Source: a virus. Taken from it: 41,915 bases of DNA. Location of the stretch: IMG/VR virus record IMGVR_UViG_3300035180_001210, positions 1-41,915 of that record, one strand, 5' to 3'. Positions 19,208-34,989 of this stretch are shown here, in pieces. Position 1 is the first letter of the stretch. Each line of letters begins with the position of its first letter. The notes beneath the pieces are model-generated. The model did no database searches. It saw only the letters and a program-made list of their open reading frames with translations, and had not been told where the DNA came from. Both the position numbers and the translations under genes were made by a program.

Positions 19208-20107
19208 ATGAGCGTCTCGTTCTACCGCGGGCAACAGATCGGCCGGGAAGACCTCAACCTCTTCCTGGAGAATACGTCACGTGTCCCGGTGAACGCGGCG
19301 GAGATCAGCTACGCCCTGTACGACTTCACGACGAAGCAGGAGGTGCTCCTCGGGGTGCCCCGCCGCATCCCTGCGAACCCCTCGATCGGCGAATACTACG
19401 CGAGCATCATCGTCCCGCTCGACGCCAACCTGGGGGACTACCGAGTCCGCTGGACCTTTCGCGAGACCCTCAACGCGCCCATCCAGCAGGTCGTGCAGGA
19501 GTTCACCGTCGTAGACAAGGTGACGTCGTCAGGCGTCGTCCTCACGGGGTTCACGAACGTTCAGGCGTCCCTCATCCGAAGCCTCCGGATCCTGCTCAGG
19601 GACAACAATCCCGACCGGAACTACCACTTCCGGCCCCCGACCCACGAAGACACCGTGCGGCAGTTCAACCGCGTCTTCGGGTACATCTGGGAAGACGACG
19701 AGCTGTCCGAGTACATCGACCGTGGCCTCGACATGGTCATCGCCTACCCCCCGCGCACGCCTTTCCCGAGCGTCGACGCGATGGTGCAGATGAGGCCCGA
19801 GTGGAAGACCCTGGTGCTCACGGCGGCGCAGATCCACGCCCTACAGGCGCTCCAGATCAACTGGGTGGCGGACGAGTTCGACTACTCGATCGGCGGCATC
19901 TCGCTAAACCTGGACAAGGCCGGCAAGTACGAGTCGGCTAAGCAGTCGGCGTCGGAGCAATTCGACAAGCAGATCGAGAAGGCCAAGGCCACGATCAACA
20001 TCATCCGCGCCGTACAGCAGCCGAAGTTTGGTACGGGTATCAGATCGAGTTTCGGTCCTTACAGTGGGGCTGGAATCCTGACTCCCCGGAAATTTGTGGG
20101 CTTTTAG
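19208..20107 (+). CDS. Connector- or neck-like virion protein with recoded C terminus
   Basis: 299 aa, start two bases after the preceding stop. Residues 1-100 are the Ig-like domain shared with 15489 and 16369 (YRGQQIGREDLNLFLENT, GEYYASIIVP, YRVRWTFRET). Residues 115-265 are helical, with SLIRSLRILLRDNNPDRNYH, FGYIWEDDELSEYIDRGLDM and ALQALQINWVADEFDYSIGG; from memory this resembles proteins near the neck genes of other large phages. The last 27 codons use AGT, GGT, CCT, GGA, AAA and TTT, unlike the rest. Its terminal peptide GPYSGAGILTP is repeated out of frame after the stop. A homing endonuclease gene follows 79 bases on. Confidence 0.7.
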   Translation: MSVSFYRGQQIGREDLNLFLENTSRVPVNAAEISYALYDFTTKQEVLLGVPRRIPANPSIGEYYASIIVPLDANLGDYRVRWTFRETLNAPIQQVVQEFTVVDKVTSSGVVLTGFTNVQASLIRSLRILLRDNNPDRNYHFRPPTHEDTVRQFNRVFGYIWEDDELSEYIDRGLDMVIAYPPRTPFPSVDAMVQMRPEWKTLVLTAAQIHALQALQINWVADEFDYSIGGISLNLDKAGKYESAKQSASEQFDKQIEKAKATINIIRAVQQPKFGTGIRSSFGPYSGAGILTPRKFVGF

Positions 20108-20142
20108 GACCGTATACGGGTGCAGGGGTACTGACACCATAA
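20054..20142 (+). repeat. Duplicated gene end (two copies of the GPY-GAG-LTP peptide code)
   Basis: Codons 20054-20086 encode GPYSGAGILTP in frame with the 19208 gene. Bases 20107-20142, beginning in the stop codon and in the -1 frame, encode GPYTGAGVLTP and a TAA stop. The eleven codon pairs match at the peptide level in nine places, while the bases differ mainly at third positions. So the second copy is a diverged remnant or donor of the same gene end. Confidence 0.8.
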
Positions 20143-20186
20143 AGCAGGTCTTGATCAAGTTGTCGTGGTGTGCCAGTATACAGGGC

Positions 20187-21455
20187 ATGCCCACGACTTG
20201 TCCCGTATGTGGCCAGCACTTCCCAAACTCCGATACGATCAATTCCCGCCACAAGGCCAAGTGCTCTGGCGAAGTGGTGACGAAGCCGCGGCCTTGCTTG
20301 TGTGGGCATGAAGCAACGTCTCTGACGCAGATGAAGCGTCACCGGAGCACCTGTACGAAGTGGGCGGAACGCGATCGCGGTGAGGTGCAGATGAAACGCC
20401 TCGCAGCGACGCTCCAGAAGAATCATGGAGAAGGCGTCCGGAACCCTCGCGATGTCGTTTCCGCGGAGGCACAGCGACGCGAGACGCTAAAAGCGAAGTA
20501 CGGGGCGGAGAACGTGTTCTCCCGAGAGTCCTCCCTGTACGAACAAGTGCGGGCAGCGTCAGACGCGAATCGACCCGTACTCCGAGGAGAGGCCAACCCG
20601 TTCGCGTGGCCAGAGACACAAGCCAAGATCAAAGCCACGAATGTCGAACGGTACGGTGCGGAGAACCCCCAACAATCGGACGAGATTCGCGCACGCACCC
20701 GTGAAACTGTTCTCGATAAATACGGGGTGGAGCACGTACTGTCAGCACCGGAGGTTCGAGGGAAGATCGTGGCAACGAATGTCGAGCGGTATGGCGGACC
20801 TACCCCTGCAAACTCACCAGAGGTTGTGGAGAAAGCTCGTCAGACCAACCTCGAACGTTGGGGAGTTGAGTGGACCGGGCAGAGCTTTGTTCTTCGGGAG
20901 CAACAGTTGGCCACGATGGTCGAGCACTACGGATCGCATTTCCTGGCCTCAGAAGAGGGTAAGGCACGGATACGTGAAATCATGCTTCGTGAGTACGGTG
21001 TGCCCCACCCGATGATGAACCGGGAGATAGCGCACAGGGCGCTAGTCAACGCTGGAGGCCATCGACAGCCGAACCTGCCTGAACGAATGCTCCACGCACT
21101 CGTCCCGCAGCTTCTCTACACGGGCGACGGCACGTTCTGGCGGTGGCTCCCCCTCTTGAAGCACCACAAGAACCCTGACTTCATCCTACCTGGCCCCGAT
21201 GCCGACAACTCGAAGCGTGGGGTCACGAAGGTAGTCGAACTCTTCGGGGACTTCTGGCACTCCCGCATGTTCACGGGGAAGGCGAACTTCGATCACGAGC
21301 AAGAACTGATCAACGCGTTCGCGGAGATCGGCATCGAGTGCCTCGTCGTGTGGGAGAGCGACGTGAAGAAGAAGCGCGAAGAGGTCCGCAGCCGTGTGGA
21401 GGAGTTTCTGGCCGGACACGGATCCTCTAGTAAGAAGACCCCGGATGGAGCCTGA
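20187..21455 (+). CDS. Homing endonuclease, Vsr/EDxHD-like, with zinc fingers and repeats
   Basis: 422 aa from ATG 20187. N terminus: two zinc fingers, CPVCGQ...HKAKC and CLCGHEATSLTQMKRHRSTC. Residues about 90-290 hold five to six repeats of the type 'KYGAENVFS...REQV' (KYGAENVFSRESSLYEQ; RYGAENPQQSDEI; KYGVEHVLSAPEVRGK; EYGVPHPMM), the DNA-reading repeats common in phage homing endonucleases. The C-terminal domain has NPDFILPGP, KVVELFGDFWHS and ECLVVWESDVK, the pattern of Vsr-like enzymes such as I-Bth0305I (metal-binding Asp, then Glu and His). Codon use is far more A/T-rich than its neighbours. TATACA at 20178-20183 may be a -10 element; the ribosome binding site is poor. Confidence 0.85.
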   Translation: MPTTCPVCGQHFPNSDTINSRHKAKCSGEVVTKPRPCLCGHEATSLTQMKRHRSTCTKWAERDRGEVQMKRLAATLQKNHGEGVRNPRDVVSAEAQRRETLKAKYGAENVFSRESSLYEQVRAASDANRPVLRGEANPFAWPETQAKIKATNVERYGAENPQQSDEIRARTRETVLDKYGVEHVLSAPEVRGKIVATNVERYGGPTPANSPEVVEKARQTNLERWGVEWTGQSFVLREQQLATMVEHYGSHFLASEEGKARIREIMLREYGVPHPMMNREIAHRALVNAGGHRQPNLPERMLHALVPQLLYTGDGTFWRWLPLLKHHKNPDFILPGPDADNSKRGVTKVVELFGDFWHSRMFTGKANFDHEQELINAFAEIGIECLVVWESDVKKKREEVRSRVEEFLAGHGSSSKKTPDGA

Positions 21456-21931: not shown

Positions 21932-22300
21932 ATGGCACCCAGAGTACACCCGTGCGTTTGCGGGTTCAAGAGCATCACATACCCGCAGATGAAGAAGCAC
22001 CGGCGCAAGTGCGCCGTGTGGCGGGCCCGACCAAACCCCACCGCCCTGACCATCCTACGCCTGCGGCAGACGCGGCAGGAGCAGTCGGCGAATGAGCGGG
22101 CCTTCGAGCCGTGCCTCATCTGCGGCAAGCGGCCCGACCATCACATGGTGTCCTGTCCCAACTCGCAGGCTGAAGTCGTACGTCGTCAAGCCTTGGAGCG
22201 CCATGGGATCGACCTGGAACAGTTCGACCGCTTCCTTCGGGTGCTAGCGAAGCGCTACGAGTCTCGGGGCTCGGCTACGGAACCCCGTCCTGCGGGCTGA
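21932..22300 (+). CDS. Small zinc-finger protein related to the homing endonuclease N terminus
   Basis: 122 aa. HPCVCGFKSITYPQMKKHRR and the following KCAVW repeat the second finger of the 20187 endonuclease (PCLCGHEATSLTQMKRHRST, CTKW). A second Cys/His cluster, CLICGKRPDHHMVSCP, and a helix (LERHGIDLEQFDRFLRVLA) follow. There is no nuclease domain. It could be a free-standing DNA-binding protein derived from an endonuclease, or the source of that finger. The start ATG has AAGGGGG 15 bases upstream; GTG further upstream is possible. Confidence 0.6.
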   Translation: MAPRVHPCVCGFKSITYPQMKKHRRKCAVWRARPNPTALTILRLRQTRQEQSANERAFEPCLICGKRPDHHMVSCPNSQAEVVRRQALERHGIDLEQFDRFLRVLAKRYESRGSATEPRPAG

Positions 22301-22380: not shown

Positions 22381-22701
22381 ATGAGCGACACGACCAACCC
22401 GGCGCACAAGACCATCGACGACCCGATCGACGCGGAGACGCTCGCGAAGTTCGACGACCTGGAACAGGCGGAGATGCGTCTCGGCAAGCAACTGATCACG
22501 CTCCGTTCCGAGGAGCTGCGCATCATGGTCGCGGCCCGCCGGATCGAGGACGAACGCCAGAGGCTGTTCGAGAAGGTGCTCGTCGATCGTGGGCTGCACC
22601 CGTCCACCGCGATCAACATCGACTCGGGCAACGGACGCATCAGCCTCGTCGGCCAGGCGCCGCCGGCCGACGTCGCCGTGGATGCCCCTCCGGCGTCGTG
22701 A
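22381..22701 (+). CDS. Small coiled-coil protein, probably a virion or assembly factor
   Basis: 106 aa, ribosome binding site AGAGGAG six bases before ATG 22381. Residues 15-70 are a continuous charged helix (LAKFDDLEQAEMRLGKQLIT to RIEDERQRLFEKVLV). A short NIDSGNGRISLVG strand and a Pro/Ala tail follow. No family recognised. It starts a compact set of connector-like genes. Confidence 0.6.
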   Translation: MSDTTNPAHKTIDDPIDAETLAKFDDLEQAEMRLGKQLITLRSEELRIMVAARRIEDERQRLFEKVLVDRGLHPSTAINIDSGNGRISLVGQAPPADVAVDAPPAS

Positions 22702-33666: not shown

Positions 33667-33689
33667 CAGGGTCAGCGGCTAGTAGACTT

Positions 33690-33731
33690 GACGGCATCGG
33701 TAGGTGAGCTTAGGCTCCCTCCGATGCCGTC
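33690..33731 (+). promoter_or_regulatory. Long hairpin covering the start codon of the third endonuclease
   Basis: GACGGCATCGG (33690-33700) pairs perfectly with CCGATGCCGTC (33721-33731). Inside, AGG/CCT and GAGC/GCTC continue the stem to about 18 pairs with two bulged T and loop TTAG. The ATG at 33724 lies in the right arm and the only ribosome-binding-like AGGTGAG lies in the left arm, so both would be hidden in the fold. Confidence 0.6.
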
Positions 33732-34989
33732 AGACATTTGGGCCGGGAAAAGCGAGCCACGAGACTTCGTGACGTGCCTGGTGTGTGGCCACAGGGCCGT
33801 CACCCTCGCCACGCATCTTCCCCGGAAGCACGGGATCCTGGCGGACGCCTACCGAGAGCAGTTCCCTGGCGGACGCCTTCGTTGCGAAGTGCTGATTGAG
33901 AAGCGTCAGGCGGCGTCTTCACGAGCCCATGCTGCGAGTCCCCGCAAGGGACTCAAGAAAACGATCGACTGTCCATCGTGCGGGCAAACGCATGACGTGG
34001 GGTTGACGTTTGCGTCCACCAACCGGCTCTGCCCAGAGTGTCGGGACGAAGCGCAGTGGGCGGGCAAGACCGAACCCCAGGACTACGTGACGTGCGCGGT
34101 CTGTGGGCATCGAGCGGAGAGCCTCGTCAGCCACATCCGAAACACCCACCCTGAGTTGGAGGGGCACTACAAGAGGGCCTTCCCCGGATTCGAGGTGATT
34201 TCGTCAGGGTCTGCGCTTCGAGATCGATCCCACCTCAAGGGTAAGTCCCTCTCGACTGATACCCGTGCGCTCATGGCGGCAAACGCTGGTCGATGGAATG
34301 TAGGCTTGACAAAAGCCACTGACCCCCGGGTGGCGCAAGCCGCCGCCAACATGATAGGCCGTAGGACTTGGAGCAAAGGGCTCACTAAAGAGACCGACCC
34401 TCGGTTGCAAACGACAGCAGAGGAGGTGTCGCGAACTCGTTCTGTACAGCACTGGACGTCCGGCAACGACATCACGCTCACTCGCGAGCAACTCCTTCCG
34501 TTCTCCATCAAGAACGGGAAGATCTCCGTCGGTCGAGCCATCGCCGCCTTGGGGCACGCTTTTGTGACGATCCGGCGCGAGTGCGAGAAGCACGGGCTTC
34601 TGATCTCCCACGCGGCCCTCAAAGAAGCGATCTGCCTGGAGACCCTCGCGCAGCTTCTCGGCGGGATGTCGTATGAGACGGAATGGAACGATGGCACCTT
34701 CCTCAACCCAAAAACGGGTGGGCGCTTTCGATTCGATGGCTTCTTCCGTGAACGACGTCTCTTGGTCGAGTTCCACGGGAGTCAGCACTACAACCCCACC
34801 TCCAAGTGGTTTTTCGATGGTGGGGGTACATACGCGGAGCTTGTTGAGCGGGATCAGGAGAAGGCCCGTCAGGTCCAGGCGGACGGACGGTTCAGGCTCT
34901 TTGCTGTACGCGAAGACGAGCCCTACGCTGATCCCACCTATCTCCGTGGGCGGCTCATGGACGAGGGCCTTTTCGATCCAGGGGCATGA
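33724..34989 (+). CDS. Homing-type endonuclease with zinc fingers and PD-(D/E)XK-like domain
   Basis: 421 aa from ATG 33724; TTG 33688 in frame is an alternative. N terminus: fingers CLVCGHRAVTLATHLPRKHG, CPSCGQTH...CPEC and CAVCGHRAESLVSHIRNTH, of the MucR/Ros-like type. The middle has two copies of the motif found in phage homing enzymes (WNVGLTKATDPRV; WSKGLTKETDPRL). The C-terminal domain RFDGFFRERRLLVEFHGSQH, with a later ERDQEKARQ helix, matches a PD-(D/E)XK or Vsr-like nuclease core (Asp, then Val-Glu-Phe). Codons are A/T-richer than in the sheath. The gene lies alone between the sheath gene and the next structural gene. Confidence 0.8.
   Translation: MPSDIWAGKSEPRDFVTCLVCGHRAVTLATHLPRKHGILADAYREQFPGGRLRCEVLIEKRQAASSRAHAASPRKGLKKTIDCPSCGQTHDVGLTFASTNRLCPECRDEAQWAGKTEPQDYVTCAVCGHRAESLVSHIRNTHPELEGHYKRAFPGFEVISSGSALRDRSHLKGKSLSTDTRALMAANAGRWNVGLTKATDPRVAQAAANMIGRRTWSKGLTKETDPRLQTTAEEVSRTRSVQHWTSGNDITLTREQLLPFSIKNGKISVGRAIAALGHAFVTIRRECEKHGLLISHAALKEAICLETLAQLLGGMSYETEWNDGTFLNPKTGGRFRFDGFFRERRLLVEFHGSQHYNPTSKWFFDGGGTYAELVERDQEKARQVQADGRFRLFAVREDEPYADPTYLRGRLMDEGLFDPGA

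Follow-up and report, generated by a model that had tools for sequence, protein, structure and literature searches.

In the window, the whole stretch of 41,915 nucleotides analysed here (IMG/VR record IMGVR_UViG_3300035180_001210), the virion gene gA is followed by a partial second copy of its own 3' end (20107..20142, + strand), lying outside the gA frame and ahead of a free-standing homing endonuclease gene. This copy is probably the fossil of an older gA 3' end, displaced by the complete end of a related phage's gene that was placed in front of it.

Two copies of the gA end

The gene gA (19208..20107, + strand) encodes a protein of 299 residues with a complete conserved C terminus, KFGTGIRSSFGPYSGAGILTPRKFVGF. 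It matches PHROG 17327 at E 1e-4, and the annotation of its relatives, including the Tunturi_5 homologue, is head-tail connector; a fold search with the gA model (pLDDT 67) gave no convincing match. The in-frame unit GPYSGAGILTP occupies positions 20054..20086 (+ strand; DNA GGTCCTTACAGTGGGGCTGGAATCCTGACTCCC). The first base of the second copy (DNA GGACCGTATACGGGTGCAGGGGTACTGACACCA-TAA) is the G of the gA stop codon TAG, and the stretch from that base, GGACCGTATACGGGTGCAGGGGTACTGACACCATAA, reads GPYTGAGVLTP-stop in the -1 frame. A degenerate-pattern scan of the whole record matched these two units only. Between the TAA of the second copy and the endonuclease ATG (20187) are 44 bases (20143..20186, + strand), within which may lie a decayed RKFVGF part that has lost one base (p only about 0.05) as well as TTGATC as a possible -35 box; a strict promoter scan of this tract found no match on the + strand.

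The two units differ at 12 of 33 bases, and ten of the twelve differences are at third codon positions (hypergeometric P = 7e-6). When random changes were simulated (12 per trial), 9 of 11 residues were kept in none of 20,000 trials. Both results indicate that each copy was still coding while the two diverged; they evidently did so in separate lineages, translated in each, and were later joined by recombination. The third-position GC content of gA falls from approximately 0.9 in the body of the gene to 0.5 over the last 25 codons; the corresponding values for the two copies are 5/11 and 4/11.

A search of public phage proteins with gA returned two relatives, and many more were found in IMG/VR (loci designated by L numbers below), mostly in jumbo phages on contigs of up to 200-500 kb. 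Nearly all of 114 distinct ends of the protein read ...FGPYxGxGVLxPRKFVGF or ...PRNFL. Judged by the family end ...GPYxGxGVLxPRKFVGF-stop, the in-frame end of gA is the complete, working end, and the second copy an extra piece without RKFVGF. Relatives with two in-frame GPY units, which the original prediction had named as the finding that would make the second copy an ordinary broken repeat, were looked for among about 110 gA relatives and none was found. That prediction, made from the letters alone, was right in the position and frame of both units, in reading the kept peptide with altered third bases as selection on the protein, and in calling the codons of both copies unusual. It needs correction in one point: the in-frame end does not stop at LTP but continues through RKFVGF, which belongs to the conserved end.

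The gA body in the window (the 80 codons preceding the present end) is nearest to that of L082, with 78% identity overall and 66% at third positions. The second copy has 6 of 11 third positions in common with L082 and the present end has 0 of 11, a comparison over a short basis of 11 codons only, which suggests that the second copy is the older gA end and that the in-frame one probably arrived later. The present, newer end (FGTGIRSSFGPYSGAGILTPRKFVGF-stop; 20030..20107, + strand, with an approximate left border) has a third-position GC content of 0.5, and its 26 codons are nearest to those of L008 (76%, versus 64% for the gA body), which also has the endonuclease nearest to that of the window. 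A drop in third-position GC was rejected as a general mark of gA ends beside the endonuclease gene, since loci with and without that gene do not differ clearly (mean fall 0.14 versus 0.11).

Two further features of gA were seen in relatives. In L054, L060, L061, L070, L183 and L203, gA continues beyond PRNF into the endonuclease leader with VLP... or VIP... extensions that overlap the endonuclease start, and the virion protein may gain 20-25 residues, mostly hydrophobic. Many relatives (e.g. L007, L009, L013, L017, L019) encode, immediately before gA, a second copy of its N-terminal domain (25-35% identity).

The endonuclease gene and the scars beside it

The free-standing homing endonuclease (20187..21455, + strand; 422 aa) consists of an N-terminal Cys-rich module, DUF7487 repeats and a C-terminal EDxHD/Vsr-like nuclease domain. 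It matches PHROG homing-endonuclease families and DUF7487, and its orthologues at the same position are 50-65% conserved. The first PDB match of its AlphaFold model is 3r3p, the catalytic domain of I-Bth0305I (prob 0.99, TM 0.62 over the target, E only 0.11), and on the basis of the model the enzyme is predicted to carry a Vsr-like catalytic domain of the I-Bth0305I (EDxHD) type; a profile search of PDB sequences with the endonuclease gave no match. The motifs NPDF, VVE-FG, WH and HE/WE are conserved at the sequence level and are candidates for the catalytic residues E-D-x-H-D. In relatives free of the endonuclease gene, a homologue of the gene at 22381..22701 (+ strand) directly follows gA (L010, L024, L031, L036, L038); therefore, 2.3 kb of DNA is inserted between the two genes in the window, with 22381..22701 marking its right end. 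In L013 (5889-6100) and L092 (2935-3444), the C-terminal part of the endonuclease alone is left behind gA, a stage of endonuclease loss. A small Cys-rich ORF at 21932-22300 of the window contains PCVCGFKSITYPQMKKHRRKCAVW, a match to the endonuclease's own PCLCGHEATSLTQMKRHRSTCTKW module (BLASTP E 3e-7); this ORF is apparently either a stand-alone DNA-binding module or an endonuclease remnant.

Extra copies of the gA end were sought in relatives with two profiles. A protein profile of the gA family C termini was scanned over 120 bases past each stop, with 2,280 resampled downstream stretches as the null (best 22.2 bits), and four loci scored above all controls, namely the window at 37.8 bits, L191 and L195 at 30.8 bits, and L008 at 25.8 bits. 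The extra copy reads PYVGRGVLR-stop in L191 and L195, and VGCGVLTPR-stop in L008. For 111 gA genes, the approximately 6 kb that follow were scanned with a DNA profile. Its seven best matches (the window, L008, L188, two each in L191 and L195) all lay less than 100 bases from a gA stop, with an endonuclease gene downstream of them; one shuffled control match, at 11.9 bits, was about as good as the weaker real ones, so that the weight lies in their common position. Among loci carrying the endonuclease gene, 6 of 45 had a strong extra copy; among those lacking it, 0 of 64 did (Fisher P = 0.004, which is optimistic since the six loci represent about four independent cassettes). The six include L198, which has a weak score of its own but was counted for the 94% identity between its tract and the L188 tract; weaker possible fossils were left uncounted (L003, L065, L194, L201, L204, L207, L220, L281, L283, L286).

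Clear extra copies always lie before the endonuclease gene and never after it; the profile scans found no gA-end-like sequence past the endonuclease gene, nor any behind the gA stop of endonuclease-free relatives, and an interpretation of the copy as a conserved downstream feature of gA was rejected because those relatives lack it. The frame of the extra copy varies, being -1 in the window and L008, +1 in L191 and L195, and others elsewhere. L191 and L195 each contain two stacked fossils, of which the deeper is more decayed, in the order fresh complete end, FEPYVGRGVL, decayed KQRKYGVGI...FEPYVGCGV, endonuclease gene. In L188 and L198 the sequence KQRKYGVGV...FGLNVGCGV lies behind a tract resembling other endonuclease leaders. 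The fossils stop near GV, GVL or GVLTP(R), and when they were searched for an RKFVGF part, only the window gave a match, a weak one (p 0.049). An exact-pattern scan of IMG/VR found no further truncated copies. Two phages have an identical 60-base leader before the endonuclease gene (L286:1438-1500 and L291:1438-1500), in which a gA-tail-like stretch, AAGCAAGCAAAGTTTGGTG, was recognized by eye between TTGACA and TATAGT.

The scar and the endonuclease gene differ in history from the gA end that adjoins them. L191 and L195 share 65% identity over the last 240 bases of gA, 88% over the scar tract and 91% over the endonuclease gene; for L188 and L198, the corresponding values are 75%, 94% and 94%. 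Identities of 88-94% for scar and enzyme gene versus 65-75% for the gA end indicate that scar and endonuclease move together, with a border that appears to lie at or near the gA end.

Proposed origin of the second copy

The copies, their association with the endonuclease gene, their order, their joint movement with it and the foreign character of the present end are observations; we infer a cut, a copying event and a join. The likeliest origin of the copy is repeated, imprecise gene-end replacement driven by the endonuclease, for which a route of repair is proposed. An endonuclease of this EDxHD type would break the conserved 3' end of gA. On the gA side, where homology is strong, repair would copy the gA end of another phage through its stop codon, a step supported by how foreign the present end looks. 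The old end, on the far side of the break, would offer little homology at approximately 64% identity, and the join would be imprecise, possibly at a short match TTTnG between TTTTAG in the new end and TTYGG in the old (aligned by eye). T4 offers a precedent, in which homing with one-sided homology yields junctions at microhomology (PMC2988022). The outcome, in one step, would be a new end, its stop, the old end from GPY on, and then the endonuclease gene already present. The fossil, no longer translated with gA, would decay; in relatives it travels with the endonuclease gene when the latter moves, and repeated rounds would stack fossils as in L191 and L195. Since the copy is upstream of the endonuclease gene in every case, the newer end would have been placed before an older end that already preceded that gene. 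All 11 residues of the copy in the window are intact, which implies that the event was recent or that something has kept the copy. The scar's restriction in relatives to the side of an endonuclease gene supports the original suggestion that an old gene end was displaced at an invaded locus. The position of the copy before the endonuclease gene, raised there as a puzzle, would in part be explained by this order of events; the route does not account for the ending of the copies near GVL(TP). Fossils that end there without a recognizable RKFVGF are at odds with an old end simply left whole; a whole old end reaching RKFVGF-stop was considered and set aside, its support being weak in the window (p 0.049) and absent at the other loci.

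The movement of scar and endonuclease together between gA backgrounds, with a border at the gA stop, would also be expected if the endonuclease cassette had brought a piece of another phage's gA tail on its left side and had been joined behind the stop of a resident, unreplaced gA. In T4, according to the part of PMC2988022 that concerns one-sided homology, homing leads to illegitimate junctions at microhomology, which is how such a cassette might be joined. However, it is the copy, rather than the present end, that resembles L082 at third positions, and it is the present end that looks foreign, so that a hitch-hiking tail is considered unlikely. The constant position of the copies between gA and the endonuclease start would fit a regulatory site, either a degenerate endonuclease target before the promoter, kept for self-repression, or promoter DNA. 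I-TevI, as outlined in PMC2988022, represses itself via a homing-site-like operator upstream of its own gene, and the gA-tail-like stretch of L286 and L291 overlaps, by eye, a TTGACA/TATAGT pair. Against such a site, most loci with the endonuclease gene have no recognizable copy, the scar tract of L191 and L195 has changed a little faster than the endonuclease gene (88 versus 91%), and the strict scan found no + strand promoter in the window; retention for regulation is given only a small chance. A comparably slim prospect is that displaced ends become control DNA of the endonuclease (operator or promoter), layer on layer, in which case a selfish element would build its own switch from its victim's coding sequence.

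The remaining two readings dispense with displacement. The original prediction had allowed that the copy might be a second C-terminal repeat reached by a -1 frameshift, which would occur at GGC-TTT-TAG within GGCTTTTAG. The gA stop codon does not interrupt the -1 frame (KFVGF-LGPYTGAGVLTP-stop) and the L008 copy has the same frame and position, but this arrangement occurs in only 2 of about 110 relatives, other copies being in other frames; two in-frame units occur in no relative, and endonuclease-free relatives have no copy. TTT-TAG is also a poor -1 slip site, at which TTT moved back onto CTT mispairs, and no stable RNA structure lies behind it (z = -0.5). The suggestion of a frameshift was therefore dropped as very improbable; the conserved slippery site, stimulator and extension of a programmed product were not found in relatives. 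The adjacency of the units could reflect local tandem duplication followed by drift, an explanation rendered scarcely credible by the concentration of 10 of 12 differences at third positions and by a pattern that drift produced in 0 of 20,000 trials.

Comparison with known systems

Replacement of C termini by gene ends that endonuclease genes carry is known from fungal mitochondria, in atp6 of Allomyces macrogynus and in atp6, atp9, cox2 and nad3 of Glomus (Beaudet et al. 2013, PMC3630166). There the old end persists behind the endonuclease gene, and most differences between the two ends are synonymous. Displaced-end formation at gA would extend this logic to jumbo phages. As in Allomyces and Glomus (PMC3630166), a free-standing endonuclease gene lies directly behind an essential gene, here directly behind the replaced end of gA, and the in-frame C terminus is foreign with mostly synonymous differences (10 of 12 at third positions, with changes in composition and nearest relative), while the old end lies nearby, untranslated. 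Unlike the fungal endonucleases, which are of LAGLIDADG or GIY-YIG type, the phage enzyme is EDxHD/Vsr-like; the old end is downstream of the endonuclease gene there (the Allomyces atp6 type) and upstream of it here; and stacked old ends, present in the phages, are not described in PMC3630166. What would be new is an old end that is upstream of the enzyme gene and can be stacked. The free-standing seg/mob endonucleases of T4-like phages are similar in that, by the account in PMC2988022, the enzyme gene adjoins an essential gene and flanking sequence is exchanged, but a leftover partial end of the target gene between that gene and the endonuclease gene is not described in the portion of PMC2988022 drawn upon here. 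A literature search for phage precedents of displaced gene ends found nothing fitting.

The other relevant comparison is with the EDxHD homing endonucleases, to which I-Bth0305I belongs, and with fractured genes (Dassa 2009; Taylor 2011). The fractured genes of Dassa et al. are reportedly gene halves with split inteins and an endonuclease gene between them. The gA system resembles these in nuclease fold (by model comparison) and in that gA relatives are split at two internal sites; it differs in that the 3' end of gA has no intron or intein, a complete end is carried, and old ends accumulate. No splicing element is needed at this site because a complete end is supplied. Inteins, contiguous or split, interrupt gA relatives at residues ~133 and ~225, in some cases with an endonuclease gene separating the halves, and gA is thus invaded at three places.

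If displacement is the correct interpretation, the scars record in readable form how a single essential gene was invaded again and again, and provide natural pairs of target sequences from before and after invasion for EDxHD endonucleases. Synonymous change at a gene end can come from end swaps, and short peptides that appear in frame behind a stop codon can, for annotators, be scars.

Apparent split inteins were found at residue ~225 in L188, L201, L050, L073 and L220 and at residue ~133 in L191, L003, L082 and L207, the endonuclease between split halves being Vsr-like or other, and contiguous mini-inteins at residue 225 in L046, L195 and L177, that of L046 matching the intein C-terminal domain TIGR01443 above the cut-off. 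Elsewhere in the window, an ORF at 33688-34989 has a zinc finger of ROS/MucR type (Pfam PF05443, E 4e-9) and, in its C-terminal part, a weak resemblance to an HNH endonuclease (PHROG 559), and is perhaps another mobile nuclease gene.
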